A DNA stretch of 50,446 nucleotides from Ignavibacteria bacterium (lineage in GTDB: Bacteria; Bacteroidota; Ignavibacteria; Ignavibacteriales; Ignavibacteriaceae): positions 1 to 50,446 of the forward strand of contig JAUXVN010000056.1 of assembly GCA_030684555.1 (NCBI GenBank), read 5' to 3'. Made by a program: the position numbers and the translations under genes. Positions 3,230 through 9,729 of the stretch are shown in pieces (position 1 is the first letter of the stretch; each line of letters starts with the position of its first letter). The notes under the pieces were generated by a model that saw nothing but the letters and a program-made list of their open reading frames with translations, had not been told where the DNA came from and ran no database searches.

Positions 3230-3382
3230 AACGAAGTGAAGCATCGAATTTCTAAGAACACATGTGAAACTACTGGCGAAAAACTAGCTGATTATTTTGC
3301 CGATATCGGGAAATTGATTGAACTTGGTAGTTGTACGCAGCGAGAAAAGATCTTAATATTTCAAATGGTGCGATATGAATAA
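3230..3382 (+). pseudogene. DinD-like internal fragment
   Basis: The frame encodes CETTGEKLADYFADIGKLIEL followed by GSCTQREK and ending in VRYE. This matches the pattern of the DinD core (C..TG....DHFADI.K.I.LG.GAQR....LTRYACYL) without start or end. The segment LNEVKHRIS just before it corresponds to a widely dispersed repeat-like sequence (TTGAACGAAGTGAAGCATC). The remnant overlaps the start of the RhuM gene by a few bases. A complete protein is not encoded. Confidence 0.5.
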
Positions 3383-4403
3383 CGATAAAGAAAATCTTAG
3401 CAGCGATATCATTCTTTATACTACTGAAACCGGCGATGTAAAAGTCGAAGTTCTATTTAACAATGAAACCTTTTGGTTAAATCAGAAAAAACTTGCCTCG
3501 TTATTCCAAGTTGATCGCTCGGTAATTACCAAACATCTAAAAAACATCTTTGCCAATAAGGAATTGGATGAGAATTCAGTTAGTGCAATAATTGCACATA
3601 CTGCCGTAGATGGTAAAACTTATTCTGTACAGTTTTACAATTTGGATGCAATTATCGCTGTTGGTTACCGCGTCAATAGTTTTCAAGCAACACAATTTAG
3701 AATGTGGGCTACCAGAACTCTTCGTGAATTCATGATTAAAGGTTTTGTCCTTGATGACCAACGCTTAAAACAAAGGCAACGGTTCGGTAAAGATTACTTT
3801 GATGAACTCTTAGAACGAATAAGGGAAATACGTGCAAGCGAACGAATATTTTATCAAAAGATAACGGATATTTACCAGCAATGCAGTATTGATTATAGCC
3901 AGGATGCCGATATTACCCGAAAGTTTTATAAGATGGTTCAAAACAAACTTCATTGGGCTGTAACCGGTAAAACTGCAGCTCAACTTATTGCTGAAAGAGC
4001 GGATTCATCTAAACCGCAAATGGGGTTACTTACCTGGAAAAATTCTCCCAAAGGCAAAATTGTTAAAAGTGATGTCGTTGTAGCAAAGAATTATTTAACC
4101 GAAAAAGAAATTAAAGAACTTGAGCGAATCGTCTCTATGTATCTGGATTATGCCGAAAACCAAGCTGCCCGGCAAATTCCTATGAAAATGTCCGACTGGG
4201 TTAATAAAGTGGATGCGTTTTTACAGTTTAACGAATATGATATATTGAAAGATGCCGGTAAAATGAGCCATGAAGTTGCTATCAAACTTGCTGAGGATGA
4301 ATATGATAAATTTAGAGTTATACAAGATCACAACTACGAAAGTGATTTTGACAAGGAAGTTAAAAAACTTAATGCGAAAAATAAATTTGGGAAAAGGAAA
4401 TAG
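3375..4403 (+). CDS. RhuM-family protein
   Basis: A 342-residue member of the virulence-RhuM family (PF13310-type). An N-terminal DNA-binding-like region reads ETFWLNQKKLASLFQVDRSVITKHLKNIF. It is followed by the hallmark VQFYNLDAIIAVGYRVNS...FRMWATRTLREF and by KMVQNKLHWAVTGKTAAQL. Length is normal for the family. The molecular function is not established; members are frequent in defence and TA islands, which agrees with the surroundings here. The start ATG overlaps the preceding dinD-like remnant. The protein looks intact. Confidence 0.85.
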   Translation: MNNDKENLSSDIILYTTETGDVKVEVLFNNETFWLNQKKLASLFQVDRSVITKHLKNIFANKELDENSVSAIIAHTAVDGKTYSVQFYNLDAIIAVGYRVNSFQATQFRMWATRTLREFMIKGFVLDDQRLKQRQRFGKDYFDELLERIREIRASERIFYQKITDIYQQCSIDYSQDADITRKFYKMVQNKLHWAVTGKTAAQLIAERADSSKPQMGLLTWKNSPKGKIVKSDVVVAKNYLTEKEIKELERIVSMYLDYAENQAARQIPMKMSDWVNKVDAFLQFNEYDILKDAGKMSHEVAIKLAEDEYDKFRVIQDHNYESDFDKEVKKLNAKNKFGKRK

Positions 4404-4407
4404 TTAA

Positions 4408-4740
4408 ATGAAAAAAGAACTCATTTCTGAATTGTTCAAAAAGTTTGAAAACGCTTGTTATCTTTTAGAGGGTATAGAATGTTGGAGTGCTAGGGAGATG
4501 CAGGATATTTTCAATTATACTCAATGGCGTAACTTTGAGAACGCTATAGCTAAGGCAAAGGATGCTTGCGTTAACGCAGGTGAAACTGTTTCCGATCATT
4601 TTGCTGATATCAGCAAAACGATACCAATGCCTAAAGGAGCCGCTAAAACCATTGATGATATTGCTCTTACAAGATACGCTTGTTATCTTGTCGCTCAAAA
4701 TAGTCAGAATCAGAATTTGCAGAATTTAAGAATGAACTGA
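4408..4740 (+). pseudogene. dinD: dinD truncated by the GxxExxY element
   Basis: The N-terminal ~95 residues match the DNA-damage-inducible DinD family: FENACYLLEGIECWSAREMQ, then YTQWRNFENAIAKAKDAC, VSDHFADISKTI and LTRYACYLVAQN. DinD is normally about 270 residues. Here the frame leaves conserved sequence exactly at VAQN and enters the left inverted repeat of the next element, giving the artificial tail SQNQNLQNLRMN and a stop at 4738-4740. No DinD C-terminus appears beyond the element, so the 3' half is lost. E. coli DinD modulates RecA; this fragment is unlikely to do so. Confidence 0.7.
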
Positions 4741-5256
4741 ATTTTTTTATGATTAAGGATGAATTAACTTATAATGTGATTGGCTGTGCGATAAAAGTCC
4801 ATAATACTCTTGGAAATGGTTTCCAAGAAGTTATTTATCAACGATGTTTGGCTATAGAATTAGAACGAATCGGCATACAATTCGAAAGGGAAAAGGAACA
4901 AAAAATCTTTTATGATGGAATTGATGTTGGAACGCGCAGAGCTGATTTTATTGTTGAAAATAGAGTAGTTGTTGAACTAAAAGCGTTAATAAATTTAGAA
5001 GCTGTTCATTTAGCCCAAGCAAAAAATTATGTTGTAGCTTATGATTTTCCTTTAGGATTATTAATTAATTTTGGGAGTCAAAGTTTACAATACAAATTAA
5101 TATTTAATCCCAAATACAATCAAACTAATTCTGATAATTCTAAGGTTTAATAAATTACATAATGAAAATGAAAGTACGCAGCAACAATGAATATTTTACA
5201 AAGATAGATTCAAATGATTCTGTAAATTCTAAAATTCTATAAATTCTGATTCTGAC
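4703..5256 (+). mobile_element. Putative GxxExxY insertion unit with inverted terminal repeats
   Basis: Left end GTCAGAATCAGAATTT (4703-4718) and right end AAATTCTGATTCTGAC (5241-5256) are exact reverse complements. The similarity continues inward to about 31 bp with three differences. The ends are built of repeated CAGAATT units. The 554-bp unit contains one gene, the GxxExxY protein. Its left boundary coincides with the point where the dinD reading frame ceases to match its family. No clear target-site duplication was found. Mobility is inferred from these boundaries. Confidence 0.6.
4749..5150 (+). CDS. GxxExxY protein (PD-(D/E)XK-like)
   Basis: A 133-residue protein with the family-defining motif G24-x-x-E27-x-x-Y30 within LGNGFQEVIYQ. 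A downstream RRADFIV...RVVVELKA segment provides D and ExK residues of a PD-(D/E)XK nuclease-like core (PF13366-type). The catalytic-looking residues are retained, so it may be an active nuclease, although no biochemical role is established for the family. It is the only gene between the inverted repeats 4703-4735 and 5224-5256. The tail (YNQTNSDNSKV) is less conserved. ATG 4749 follows the repeat directly and no strong ribosome binding site is visible. Confidence 0.8.
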   Translation: MIKDELTYNVIGCAIKVHNTLGNGFQEVIYQRCLAIELERIGIQFEREKEQKIFYDGIDVGTRRADFIVENRVVVELKALINLEAVHLAQAKNYVVAYDFPLGLLINFGSQSLQYKLIFNPKYNQTNSDNSKV

Positions 5257-5269
5257 AGAAGAGAGTAAT

Positions 5270-6991
5270 ATGAACCACAAACCAAAATTAGAACTAACAT
5301 GGATTGGCAAAGACAAGCAGCCGAAACTCGAACCGCGTATTTTAATTGAAGACCCGGAAAAATCTTACGGCGATAAGAACACGGAGAACATGCTCATTTA
5401 CGGAGATAATCTTCTTGCTCTTAAAGCTCTTGAACAAGACTTTGCCGGAAAAATAAAATGTGCAGCAATTGATCCACCTTACAATACTGGTTCTGCGTTT
5501 GAGCATTATGATGATAGCATTGAACATTCTCTTTGGTTGAGCCTAATGAGAGACAGACTCCAGATAATTCACGGTTTATTATCTGAGGATGGAACAATCT
5601 GGGTTTGTATTGATGATAATGAAGGTCATTATTTGAAAATATTATGCGATGAAATATTTGGTAGACAATGTTTCGTTGCTACAGTTATTTGGCGCTCAAC
5701 GGACAATTCAAATAATGATGCTAAGCAATTCTCAGTTGATCATAATATGATTTTGGTTTATTCGAAAACATCCAACTGGCGTTCCAAACGATTAATGCCC
5801 GATGATAGTAAAAGAAAACATTTCAAAAATCCAGATAACGATCCCAAAGGTCCATACTTTGATGGTAATCCAATTTCGTCTCCTCATTTTCGTCAAAATT
5901 TATGTTATGATGTTATTTCACCACAAGGTAATATCATAAAATTTCCAACGAACGGTTGGAGATGGAGTAAAGAAAGAATGCAAGAAATGATTGAAAAAGG
6001 TGAAATAAGATTTACTCAAGATGGAAAATCAATCAGACGAAGAACATATTTACAAGAACAAGGTGGCTTACCTCCTTCAACATTATGGTTTGATTTGAGT
6101 GAAACTGGACATAACAGACAAGCCAAATATGAACAAAAGAATCTTTTTCCTGAATGGACTAAAGAAGAATGGTTTCAAACACCGAAACCCGAAAAGTTAT
6201 TACAAAAAATATTGATGATAGCCACAGATGAAGGCGATTGGACTCTCGATTCATTCCTTGGCTCCGGGACAACTGCTGCAGTTGCACAAAAGATGAATCG
6301 CAGATGGATAGGCATTGAACTTGGCGAGCATTGCCACACACACTGCATTCCCCGTCTTCAAAAAGTTTGCGACGGAACAGATCAAGGTGGAATATCTCCA
6401 TCAGTCCCCTCACGGGAGGGGCAAGGGGTGGGTTGGAAAGGCGGCGGCGGTTTTAAATATTATTATCTCGCTCCAAGTTTGTTAAAGCAAGATAAATACA
6501 ACAACTGGGTTATTAATCCGGAGTATAACGGCAACATGCTTGCATCTGCAATGGCAAAGCATGAAGGTTTTCGCTACCAGCCCGATGAACAAATCTATTG
6601 GAAACAAGGTCAATCCACAGAAAAAGATTTTATCTATACAACCACACAATTTATTACAGTAGAAACTCTTGACAGAATTCATGAGGAAATGCAGAGCGGA
6701 GAAAGTTTACTTATCTGTTGTAAATCATTTTCCAAAGCTTGCGATTATAGTTATTCAAACATTACAATAAAGAAAATTCCTAAAATGCTTCTTGGTAGAT
6801 GTGAGTTCGGTAAAGAAGATTACAGTCTCAATATTATCAACATGCCCGTTGATCCAAACGAGCCGGATTTTATTCCTATGGGAATCCATCCCTTCGGGAA
6901 AGGTTTTAATTCAATACCTTCATCAAAGAAAAAGAAGAATGGTAAAACAGAACCCAATCTTTTTAATTCAGAAAATGGAGGTGAAGAATGA
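5270..6991 (+). CDS. mod: Type III restriction-modification methyltransferase (Mod)
   Basis: A 573-residue adenine-specific DNA methyltransferase that would provide both modification and sequence recognition for the type III system. DPPYNTG near residue 68 is the catalytic motif IV, and FLGSGTT near residue 327 is the SAM-binding motif I. This order marks the beta class. The region between them (about 140-300) would be the target recognition domain. The C-terminus contains IPRLQKVCDGTDQGGIS and WKGGGGFKYYYLAPSLL. Between these conserved blocks sits a 12-residue in-frame insert encoded by a palindromic repeat (6405-6436). The stop overlaps the start of res (ATGA), which indicates translational coupling. 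ATG 5270 follows an AGAGAG ribosome binding site. Confidence 0.92.
   Translation: MNHKPKLELTWIGKDKQPKLEPRILIEDPEKSYGDKNTENMLIYGDNLLALKALEQDFAGKIKCAAIDPPYNTGSAFEHYDDSIEHSLWLSLMRDRLQIIHGLLSEDGTIWVCIDDNEGHYLKILCDEIFGRQCFVATVIWRSTDNSNNDAKQFSVDHNMILVYSKTSNWRSKRLMPDDSKRKHFKNPDNDPKGPYFDGNPISSPHFRQNLCYDVISPQGNIIKFPTNGWRWSKERMQEMIEKGEIRFTQDGKSIRRRTYLQEQGGLPPSTLWFDLSETGHNRQAKYEQKNLFPEWTKEEWFQTPKPEKLLQKILMIATDEGDWTLDSFLGSGTTAAVAQKMNRRWIGIELGEHCHTHCIPRLQKVCDGTDQGGISPSVPSREGQGVGWKGGGGFKYYYLAPSLLKQDKYNNWVINPEYNGNMLASAMAKHEGFRYQPDEQIYWKQGQSTEKDFIYTTTQFITVETLDRIHEEMQSGESLLICCKSFSKACDYSYSNITIKKIPKMLLGRCEFGKEDYSLNIINMPVDPNEPDFIPMGIHPFGKGFNSIPSSKKKKNGKTEPNLFNSENGGEE
6405..6436 (+). repeat. Palindromic element inserted in frame in mod
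   Basis: CCCCTC-ACGG-GAGGGG forms a perfect hairpin and is followed by CAAGGGGTGGGTTGG. Translated it gives SVPSREGQGVGW, which splits the conserved Mod blocks GGIS and WKGGGGF. A related element lies in res at 7098-7154; both end in AAGGGGTGGGTT in the same reading phase. Confidence 0.6.
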
Positions 6992-9729
6992 ATCGTAATG
7001 TAAATCTTATTCGCAATAGATTAAGTCTTCGCCCTCCGCAAGAAGAGAGCTTAACAATCCTCGCCAATCTTGCAGATAAACTGACTCTTCAAAAGAATCC
7101 CCTCCTTGGAGAGCCTGTCCCGAACTCGATTCTGGAGGACGAAGGGGTGGGTTACTTACAGCAAGAACTAGAAAAAGTAAAATCCACTTACCCAACCTGC
7201 ACAGACTTTGAAAGAACATTTCCATCCGTTTGCTTTTCACTTGCAACCGGTGTAGGTAAAACACGTTTAATGGGAGCGTTCATTGCATACTTATATCTAG
7301 AAAAAGGGATCAAGAATTTTTTCGTGTTGGCTCCAAATCTCACGGTTTACAATAAGCTGATATCCGATTTTCAAGACAGCCGGATAGATAATCCCAAATA
7401 TGTATTTCAAGGAATCGGAGAGTTTGTAACAAACCAGCCACGCATCATCACGGGCGATAATTACGAACAGATGTCGCAAACAAAACTGTTCGAATCAGAA
7501 GTTCACATAAATGTTTTCAACATCTCAAAGATCAATGCAGAGACTCGCGGTGGAAATATTCCTAAAATAAAAAGACTATCGGAATATCTTGGTGAATCCT
7601 ACTTCAATTACTTATCCAATCTTGATGATCTTGTCCTCCTGATGGATGAATCTCATCATTACCGTGCGGATCGTGGAATGGAAGTTCTTAACGAACTCAA
7701 TCCTATTCTTGGTTTGGAAGTTACAGCAACACCGCAAGTAGAAAAAGCTGGCAGAACAATAAAATTCAAAAATGTTGTCCTGGAATATTCACTTGCAAAA
7801 GCAATTCAAGATGGATTTGTAAAAGAACCTGCAGTAGCAACAAGACGGGATTTCGATCCTTCACAATATTCTTTGGAAGAATTGGACCGTATTAAATTGG
7901 AAGATGGCATTCGTATTCACGAAGCAACAAAAGTAGAAATGTATAAATATTCTTTAGATGCTAAAGTTCGTCTTGTAAAACCTTTCGTGCTCGTTGTTTC
8001 AAAGGATACTGATCACGCCGGACGGTTGAAGGATTTAATAATCTCTCAATCATTTTTTAATGGTTACTATGCCGATAAAGTGATGGTGATACATTCTAAC
8101 CAATCCGGAGAGGAAAAAGATGAGAATGTTGCTAAACTTCTTTCACTCGAAAGCTTCGATAACAAAATCGAAATTGTAATTCATGTTAATATGCTTAAAG
8201 AAGGTTGGGACGTAACAAATCTTTATACAATTATTCCTTTAAGAACAGCCGCTTCTATGACTCTCCGCGAACAAACAATTGGAAGAGGCTTAAGATTGCC
8301 TTATGGACACAGAACCGGCGTTGATAAAGTTGATAAACTCACAATTGTTGCCCACGATAAATTCCAAGAAATAATTGATGAAGCCAACAAACCGGATTCA
8401 ATTATCAAACAGCAGAACATAATTGTAATTGATGAGCAAGAACTAAATCAATCCAAAGAGGTCGTTGTTTCTATTTCAACAAGTCAGAAGAAATATGAAG
8501 AACAGAAAAAGCAGATTGAAACAATTATAGAACCGGAACAAAAACATAAAGCGACTATTACGTTGGAGGTTACTCGAATAATCAACGAAGTTCTTCCGGA
8601 ACTCAACAAAGAAAAAGATGTAAAGAATGTTAGTGATCTTAAAAGGGAAGACATTCAAAAGATTGCTCTGGAAATGGTAAAAGAAAAAATCTATTCCGAT
8701 CCGCAGCAGAATATGTTTGCAACCGATCTTATCAAAGAAGCTGAACAAAGATATGAAGCAGTTGTTCAAGAGTTTACTGAAAATATTATTGAGATCCCGC
8801 GCATCACAATCCAGCCAAGCACAGAAATTAAAACCGGATTTAGAGAGTTCGATCTTGATACAATTGCGTTGAACTATCAGCCAGTATCAGAAGAAATTCT
8901 TATTAAGAAATTACGTGAACAAGAAGATGATACGGATATTGTTAGAGGCGGCGGTAAAATAATTTTGGATACTCCGGAAAATCTGATTGTAAACGAACTC
9001 ATAAACTATTCCGAGATAGATTATGATTCACAATCCGAAATCTTATTCAAACTAGCGGCTCAAGCTGTAGAAAAATTCAAAACATATCTTGATGAAGACG
9101 GCTTAAGAAATGTGGTTCAATACAACAAACGGGAAATCGGTAATTTCATCTTCAAACAATTGATGGGACATTTTTATTATGAAACTCCCGAATTTGAAAA
9201 ACCGAGAATTGATGTAAAAGCATTCACGAAAATTGAAGAACACAACTATACCAAGTTTACACAAGATTCAATTCGTGATTTCAAAGAAACAATTATTCCA
9301 ACATCAGCAATTCCAACAAAAGTATTCACCGGATTCAAGAAAGCATGTCACACACTCTATAAATTCGATTCCAAAGCAGAGAAAGATTTCTCAGTTATAC
9401 TCGAGCAAGATTCGGAAGTAAAGAAGTGGCTGCGACCTGCTCCAAATCAATTTAAGATTTATTGGCGCCATAATTCAAAACAGTATCGCCCGGATTTTGT
9501 AGCAGAGACAGATGATTCAATCTATTTGATCGAGATAAAGAAAGAGAGCGATATGGATGATTCAGAAGTTCAAGAAAAAGCTGCTGCTGCAAATGTATAT
9601 TGCAAATACGCATCAGAATATAACGCCCAAAACTCCGGGAAACCCTGGAATTATCTATTGATTCCCCATACTGAAATTCAGGTAAATAAATCCTTCAAGT
9701 TTTTAGGAAAAGCTTTTTGCATGAAATAG
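6988..9729 (+). CDS. res: Type III restriction endonuclease subunit (Res)
   Basis: A 913-residue DEAD/H helicase-endonuclease that cleaves unmethylated DNA together with Mod. LATGVGKTRLMG near residue 85 is Walker A and LLMDESHHYRADRG near residue 217 is the DExH box. The second RecA-like domain includes HVNMLKEGWDVTNLYTIIPLR and REQTIGRGLRLP (motif VI). The C-terminal nuclease has RPDFVAETDDSIYLIEIKKE near residues 833-852 (D...E-x-K). All catalytic motifs are intact. An N-terminal insert (NPLLGEPVPNSILEDEGVGY) before the Walker A region comes from a palindromic repeat at 7098-7154. The start codon overlaps the mod stop by 4 bases. Confidence 0.92.
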   Translation: MNRNVNLIRNRLSLRPPQEESLTILANLADKLTLQKNPLLGEPVPNSILEDEGVGYLQQELEKVKSTYPTCTDFERTFPSVCFSLATGVGKTRLMGAFIAYLYLEKGIKNFFVLAPNLTVYNKLISDFQDSRIDNPKYVFQGIGEFVTNQPRIITGDNYEQMSQTKLFESEVHINVFNISKINAETRGGNIPKIKRLSEYLGESYFNYLSNLDDLVLLMDESHHYRADRGMEVLNELNPILGLEVTATPQVEKAGRTIKFKNVVLEYSLAKAIQDGFVKEPAVATRRDFDPSQYSLEELDRIKLEDGIRIHEATKVEMYKYSLDAKVRLVKPFVLVVSKDTDHAGRLKDLIISQSFFNGYYADKVMVIHSNQSGEEKDENVAKLLSLESFDNKIEIVIHVNMLKEGWDVTNLYTIIPLRTAASMTLREQTIGRGLRLPYGHRTGVDKVDKLTIVAHDKFQEIIDEANKPDSIIKQQNIIVIDEQELNQSKEVVVSISTSQKKYEEQKKQIETIIEPEQKHKATITLEVTRIINEVLPELNKEKDVKNVSDLKREDIQKIALEMVKEKIYSDPQQNMFATDLIKEAEQRYEAVVQEFTENIIEIPRITIQPSTEIKTGFREFDLDTIALNYQPVSEEILIKKLREQEDDTDIVRGGGKIILDTPENLIVNELINYSEIDYDSQSEILFKLAAQAVEKFKTYLDEDGLRNVVQYNKREIGNFIFKQLMGHFYYETPEFEKPRIDVKAFTKIEEHNYTKFTQDSIRDFKETIIPTSAIPTKVFTGFKKACHTLYKFDSKAEKDFSVILEQDSEVKKWLRPAPNQFKIYWRHNSKQYRPDFVAETDDSIYLIEIKKESDMDDSEVQEKAAAANVYCKYASEYNAQNSGKPWNYLLIPHTEIQVNKSFKFLGKAFCMK
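7098..7154 (+). repeat. Palindromic element inserted in frame in res
   Basis: The element begins TCCCCTCC-TT-GGAG and ends GAAGGGGTGGGTTA, like the element in mod. Between these lies a second repeat-like core, CCTGTCCCGAACTCGATTC, which suggests one repeat nested in another. It stays in frame and adds about 19 residues before LQQELEKVK, ahead of the ATPase core. Confidence 0.55.

Follow-up and report, generated by a model that had tools for sequence, protein, structure and literature searches.

A GxxExxY gene between inverted word arrays, beside a type III restriction operon, may well be one copy of a widespread one-gene mobile element

We examined positions 4703-5256 of a 50,446-nucleotide stretch of DNA from an Ignavibacteria bacterium (the whole stretch is called the window here), where a small GxxExxY gene lies between inverted ends. 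On balance we think this unit probably belongs to a widespread family of one-gene mobile elements. They would operate in the manner of a REPIN/RAYT pair in which a nuclease replaces the HUH transposase, and we infer that the nuclease itself moves the element. The features of the region are as follows.

4703 to 5256, forward strand: the whole element, 554 bp from end word to end word (locus L006), with inverted arms and the end word of its relatives
4703 to 4747, forward strand: left arm, with the head GTCAGAATC followed by CAGAATT-type words every ~10-11 bp
5212 to 5256, reverse strand: right arm, a mirror image of the left arm, matching the reverse-complemented right-arm consensus
4749 to 5150, forward strand: GxxExxY gene, 133 aa, PD-(D/E)XK nuclease-like, with E27, D66, E76-x-K78 and Q90xxxY94
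4408 to 4740, forward strand: 5′ part of dinD (BRO-N domain), whose frame enters the left arm and ends there; the same frame is found in L226
5270 to 6991, forward strand: mod, type III DNA methyltransferase (PF01555; PADLOC MTase_III, E 2.2e-191), the next gene past the element
6988 to 9729, forward strand: res, type III restriction subunit (Pfam ResIII; PADLOC REase_III, E 8e-188)
3375 to 4403, forward strand: RhuM-family gene (PF13310, E 8e-110), upstream in the same operon and missing from the G070 copy

The arms are complementary at 82% of 45 ungapped nucleotides. An earlier note on this DNA had described ends that are exact reverse complements over 16 bp, match at about 28 of 31 bp and are built of repeated words, and these descriptions hold: GTCAGAATCAGAATTT (4703-4718) is the exact reverse complement of AAATTCTGATTCTGAC (5241-5256), 28 of the first 31 bp of the arms match, and the words are real. 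No other exact inverted repeat of at least 12 bp occurs in the window at a spacing of 380-700 bp. Among 100 versions of the window generated by a first-order Markov model, 2 contain arms of at least 16 bp, and the exact 16 bp arm taken alone is only moderately surprising and could be chance. The inverted repeat is convincing because it is conserved in relatives, and a chance origin was ruled out since the ends are common to them. Only the GxxExxY gene lies inside, as had been claimed, and a profile search of the window at E 0.001 found PDDEXK_3 and GxxExxY alone, with no HUH/Y1 or DDE transposase, between the ends. A DDE or HUH transposon was ruled out on the same ground, the single gene between the ends being PDDEXK_3. 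A phage origin was also rejected, as the GxxExxY protein is without a match in the phage collection; in PHROGs it hit one family of unknown function (E 0.00024), and a plasmid search returned 8 records, each below 60% identity.

The window protein belongs to TIGR04256 (GxxExxY; E 3e-39, 134 bits against a curated cut-off of 35) and PF13366 (PDDEXK_3; E 5e-38, 130.5 bits against a cut-off of 22). The D...ExK residues said to be retained are present as D66, E76 and K78, and together with E27 of the GxxExxY motif, Q90 and Y94 they are invariant across 72 aligned proteins; by analogy with the superfamily these are presumably the catalytic residues. An AlphaFold2 model (pLDDT 91.5, pTM 0.83) gives a confident PD-(D/E)XK fold, from which nuclease activity is predicted. 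The best structural match is 4ic1 (SSO0001), which we take to be a Cas4 protein, with a Foldseek E of 1.7e-5 to 3e-4 and, for 4ic1_G, a Z of 9.2 over 99 aligned residues at an rmsd of 3.1. Further matches are restriction-like folds with Z at most 7.5 (Cas4 4r5q 6.1, Hjc 6.4), where a Z below 8 may reflect only the common fold. The QxxxY motif is typical of the Cas4/lambda-exonuclease-type group, and the protein resembles this group in its best structural matches and in its E, D, ExK and QxxxY residues; it differs in being shorter, and no cysteine cluster was noticed. By sequence the likeness to Cas4b in PADLOC is marginal (E 0.005), and a PDB profile search gave just two weak, unrelated matches (E 0.94 and 1.3). 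Between the window and G070, a genome of a second genus of the family, dN is 0.063 and dS 0.725, which points to strong constraint on the protein. In four genomes (G120, G130, G144, G241) matches to the GxxExxY-clade profile fall in open frames of 883-896 aa, perhaps fusions.

GxxExxY genes are common around the host, a match being present in 45 of 59 other genomes that were searched. In the host genome itself (4.34 Mb, 152 contigs) there are seven GxxExxY genes in all; the window's end type is in one copy only, its exact matches being the window's own two ends, and the other genes have different end words. Among those six, four (L001, L003, L004, L007) have inverted arm pairs of at least 14 nt, L005 has direct repeats of CACAAAG words on either side of the gene, and L002 has an inverted word pair on the downstream side only. 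Across a set of 96 GxxExxY genes, in which one locus is counted twice, the best inverted match between 200-bp flanks has a median of 18.5, as opposed to 10 for 1227 control placements, and 61 of the 96 exceed the 99th percentile of the controls and 80 the 95th. The proposal of a self-contained unit with its own ends is strengthened by this, and the suggested search for conserved ends around relatives' GxxExxY genes was positive, the close relatives carrying GTC[AT]GAATCAG.

The flanking words of 95 loci were sorted into types AG (45), GAT (21), PAL3 (10) and AAT (7), with 12 showing none; these types are patterns made by eye and defined after the flanks had been seen. On a tree of 89 proteins, 5 word-type changes suffice for the 80 labelled rows, and when unlabelled rows are treated as a fifth group 12 changes are needed against a shuffled mean of 42.4. 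One exception is the PAL3-labelled L072, which sits in the GAT clade. The flanking word type thus follows the protein tree, and arms and protein are inherited together. Three other arrangements were seen among these loci. In three genera (L001, L008, L010) a GxxExxY gene with CACGGAG-type arms occupies the same gap, from a ..YGAIF/YGAI end to an MKK(R/K)ILIL start. GxxExxY genes with CACAGAG/CGCAGAG arms (L024, L028, L029, L033, L046, and L025) apparently occupy a single conserved position ahead of a gene that begins MF(E/N)(I/V/L)DL.., and there the upstream frame seems to enter the arm. Identical spacers stand between successive arms in L022 (44 bp) and L306 (~90 bp), as if an arm pair and spacer had been duplicated.

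For the window's own clade we used the window protein and two close relatives as queries, giving 79 distinct GTDB loci, 70-83% identical. With ten PAL3 loci from the host's relatives (window included) these make up 89 clade loci, although L083 and L114 are apparently the same contig and many loci come from metagenome-assembled genomes. Hosts are mostly Bacteroidota, with some records named Bacillota, Desulfococcaceae, Spirochaetes, Cyanobacteria, Fibrimonadaceae, Leptospiraceae, Geobacteraceae and Binatia. The end word common to the clade is GTCTGAATCAG[AG]ATTT, which is found with at most 3 mismatches of 11 at the left of 81, the right of 70 and both ends of 66 of the 89 loci. Over 65 loci the left-arm consensus is GTCTGAATCAGaATTTaCAGgATTaaagaATtaaCAgaAT / GTCTGAATCAGaATTTaCAGgATT, and the right arm is the same reversed; each arm is ~40 bp, with a head of TTGTCTGAATC and variants followed by about three further words of 10-11 bp. 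Outside the ends, T mostly precedes GTC and AA mostly follows GAC, and in 26 of 65 loci an ATG lies no more than 6 bases from the right end. Element length has a median of 529.5 bp (range 302-705). The two arms of one element are more alike than arms of strangers (mean 0.671 vs 0.627; 0 of 2000 permutations as high, 65 loci).

Arms also occur without the gene. A 24-position arm pattern, allowing at most 2 mismatches, gave 133 matches in 35 of 395 genomes, and the reversed pattern used as a control gave 0. The clade protein (E 1e-40) is present in 64 of the 395 genomes overall but in 8 of the 9 with at least four arm matches (p 4e-6; by genus 6 of 7, p 8e-4), and those eight mostly have one or two genes each, while 12 of the 35 genomes with arms lack the protein at E 1e-40 and show one to four arm matches. 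Gene-less arms are therefore most numerous in genomes with the GxxExxY protein. In the examples read, from some relatives and Bacteroidota, they stand as singles and as inverted pairs; the 20 stretches were mostly chosen for having two close pattern matches, so the count of pairs is not a frequency. One gene-less pair, in G424, lies at a gene junction where four sister species have none. A single arm (L228) is absent at the aligned place in a sister species, where the alignment is poor, and the comparison for L227 covers one flank only and contains many other repeats. Some single matches (L232, L233) may be chance. No clear duplications were seen by eye around gene-less pairs, an exact end search of the host genome found no gene-less inverted doublets, and across 59 relatives there were too few cases to relate exact arms to gene presence.

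Where the elements sit was examined with 12 reference R-M, RhuM and DinD proteins within 1.5 kb of each locus. R-M genes are near 31 of 89 window-clade loci and 1 of 85 loci of other types (p 1e-9), and in the window itself both mod and res of a type III operon are present beside the element. Such neighbours could mean that the gene is a passenger or defence accessory, supplying restriction operons with an additional nuclease or regulator; the arms would then be ordinary repeats or binding sites in the gaps of the operon that recombination or replication slippage has spread. The strong constraint on the protein and the tandem arrays of ends and spacer (L155, L117, L022) agree with this too, but no R-M match to the 12 reference proteins lies within 1.5 kb of 58 of the 89 window-clade and 84 of the 85 other-type loci. 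Ordinary repeats would also leave unexplained why word type follows the protein and why arm amplification goes with it, and we hold this reading to be quite unlikely. Clade elements are co-directional with the upstream gene in 46 of 50 comparisons and with the downstream gene in 50 of 52, together 96 of 102 resolved cases, and other types do so in 73 of 75 upstream and 65 of 74 downstream, counts that are to be read knowing that operon neighbours are often co-directional anyway. The element sits between host genes in the sense direction and, in the window's clade, often inside R-M operons.

To look for target duplications, host sequence outside both ends was compared, with the 99th percentile of mispaired flanks as threshold. 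Direct duplications above it were found at 10 of 63 loci; at the other 53, the window copy among them, none exceeded it. The duplications that the earlier note had thought worth seeking are thus present in some copies, none being visible at the window copy. Seven of the ten were judged to be single-copy target duplications of 8-45 bp:

L159: 40/40 bp, hsdM start
L170: 38 bp (95%), hsdS end
L096: 45 bp (78%)
L129: 31 bp (74%), hsdS end
L123: 24 bp (75%), hsdR start
L141 and L156: 9 and 8 bp, ATGAGTAA(A), overlap of hsdR stop and hsdS start

In L141 and L156 hsdR and hsdS both stay whole because the duplicated bases are the hsdR stop and the hsdS start. Some copies, then, have duplicated host sequence on their two sides, with both neighbouring genes kept intact. 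The duplications of L155 and L117 lie within repeated arrays of ends and spacer, and L139 is over the threshold with a duplication of ambiguous nature. Among other word types, 69 loci have a strong inverted match, and 4 of them lie above the control maximum (L022 at 44/44 bp, L003, L005 and L098); these give no good duplication because L022, L003 and L005 were read instead as repeated arrays and L098 as an A-rich 10-mer.

The junction of hsdR and hsdS was followed further by a search for the C-terminal portion of HsdR across 395 genomes from the phylum. Of 29 matches, 26 have no GxxExxY in the fetched locus, so junctions without the gene exist, which had been another proposed check; in the empty L259, hsdR and hsdS overlap as TTATGAGTAAAGAG. 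A GxxExxY element lies at this junction in seven loci (L257, L260 and L282, with GTDB loci L111, L138, L141 and L156). An hsdR tree was built from 30 rows, three of 33 loci being too short; its six filled rows interleave with the empty ones and require 5 changes, of which starred branches force at least 3; the filled L282 and the empty L283 have hsdR rows that are 90% identical. Clustering of the filled rows does not exceed the chance level (as low in 176 of 500 shuffles), in agreement with repeated insertion or loss. Seven loci filled at one junction, interleaved on the tree, are what might be expected of a homing element, whose nuclease would cut the unoccupied hsdR/hsdS or other junction so that repair copies the unit in. 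Clade elements, however, lie at many different genes, and the conserved feature is the element's own end rather than the target. Homing as usually described is not known to leave a target duplication, unlike some copies here, and we consider homing very improbable.

The strongest argument against the nuclease as the mover comes from another gene family. The host genome has six TIGR02436 four-helix-bundle genes (L037-L042) framed by repeated words, of types that include GAAGTTAGAAG, GGAAAGTTGG, GATGGTTGATGG and TGAATGAATG; by eye the inversion is clear in L039-L042 and less so in L037 and L038. In L268 a four-helix-bundle gene (1089-1460; TIGR02436 E 1.5e-27, PF05635 23S_rRNA_IVP E 3.4e-26) stands between inverted words at the very hsdR/hsdS junction used by GxxExxY elements. 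A nuclease is not needed for the layout, since these genes share it and L268 shares the junction; either the same host process moves both kinds of element, or two proteins do different jobs for similar elements. The earlier idea that the PD-(D/E)XK protein takes the place of a transposase stays tentative in view of these genes, and also because the window copy shows no visible duplication, dinD is truncated and the host genome has one copy of this end type. In L040 the methylase gene start beside the four-helix-bundle gene has an apparent window-type ('type III') right end, AATCATAGTTCAGACA, in frame, and the same methylase gene start adjoins a GxxExxY element in L147.

The four-helix-bundle genes raise the question of intervening sequences acting at the RNA level. 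The arms would pair in the operon mRNA and RNase III would cut the stem, with the small gene or the cut being selected and movement being rare and due to host enzymes, making the unit an mRNA counterpart of 23S rRNA intervening sequences. The Coxiella intervening sequence, a similar-sized short insert (428 nt) with one small ORF, is excised by RNase III (PMC4990558). Four-helix-bundle genes outside rRNA have similar inverted word arrays, though the window insert lies between dinD and mod, with no rRNA, and carries a PDDEXK_3 gene and not an S23p ORF. Complementary arms that change together, the sense orientation in 96 of 102 neighbour comparisons, and the 23S_rRNA_IVP-type genes framed alike in the host (six genes) and at the same junction in L268 all speak for pairing in RNA. 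On the other hand, gene-less arms stand at many places in some genomes, single arms alone are unable to form such a stem, arm amplification goes with the protein, and target duplications and occupied or unoccupied junctions are DNA-level events. We regard an RNA-level origin as unlikely, while giving it some weight.

A mobile element resembling REPIN/RAYT is the reading we prefer. In REPIN/RAYT systems a small low-copy gene is found beside inverted short repeats or between them, inverted doublets and singlets without the gene are scattered through genomes, and repeat and protein apparently co-evolve (PMC3116915, PMC8266576), all of which has a likeness here. The RAYT/TnpAREP protein is an HUH (IS200/IS605-related) enzyme, whereas the GxxExxY protein has a PD-(D/E)XK fold; the arms here are arrays of 10-11 bp words and some copies have target duplications. 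REPIN/RAYT repeats are themselves short hairpins, with tags named GTAG- and CGTC-type in PMC3733652. Since the HUH enzyme is missing, the element is not REPIN/RAYT proper. In the mechanism we propose, the protein would recognise the arms, as DNA or as a one-strand hairpin, and cut them, so that the unit is moved or copied and gene-less arms are moved in trans, the role proposed for RAYT transposases towards REPINs. Duplications of variable length might arise from staggered cuts that the host fills in, the sense orientation would reflect dependence on the transcript of the host operon, and in the window the right-hand part of dinD may have been lost at or after insertion.

More tentatively, and somewhat doubtfully as a whole, GxxExxY proteins could be the enzymes of a new class of mobile DNA, in which a lone Cas4-fold nuclease acts on arrays of short words that it recognises, moving gene-less arms as well as its own gene and leaving variable-length duplications that spare operons. 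Each enzyme clade would have its own word (CRCNRAG, CRCNGAT, CACNAAT, GTCTGAATC/CAGRATT), and the 23S-IVP four-helix-bundle elements, alike in architecture but encoding a different protein, would form a second branch. In the library that we searched, no statement was found that GxxExxY genes carry terminal arrays or are mobile. A family that is annotated but lacks an explanation thereby gains a testable mobile-element hypothesis, in which ends and target sites are defined and candidate substrates are at hand. Should the nuclease be the mover, short repeats would have a way to spread that uses a Cas4-like enzyme and no HUH or DDE transposase. The hypothesis also offers one explanation for word-like repeats between bacterial genes, such as CACRGAG arrays, and raises the possibility that 23S intervening sequences belong, as a special case, to a broader class.

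With regard to the window copy, it had been described as inserted in dinD at the point where that frame stops matching its family. The stop is there, as dinD (4408-4740) fits its 288-position model over 1-102 only, but the gene is truncated and not split: beyond the right end mod begins at 5270 after 13 bp, and the 3′ part of dinD is not there. We sought the slot before mod in 97 genomes, finding 9 mod matches in 8 of them, the window being one, and inspected 260 bp upstream in seven of the other eight, leaving out L219. The element was seen in one (G070, L217); in the other six, other genes or gaps stand in its place, with no clean empty site for the window copy. The arrangement of a truncated 110-aa dinD, element and mod recurs in G070 (locus L226), and it appears old and stable because the same layout is found in this second genus and the truncated dinD frame looks constrained (dN 0.057, dS 0.935 over 98 codons). 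The truncated gene, reduced to its BRO-N domain, has been kept in two genera with a dN/dS of ~0.06 and may be functional.
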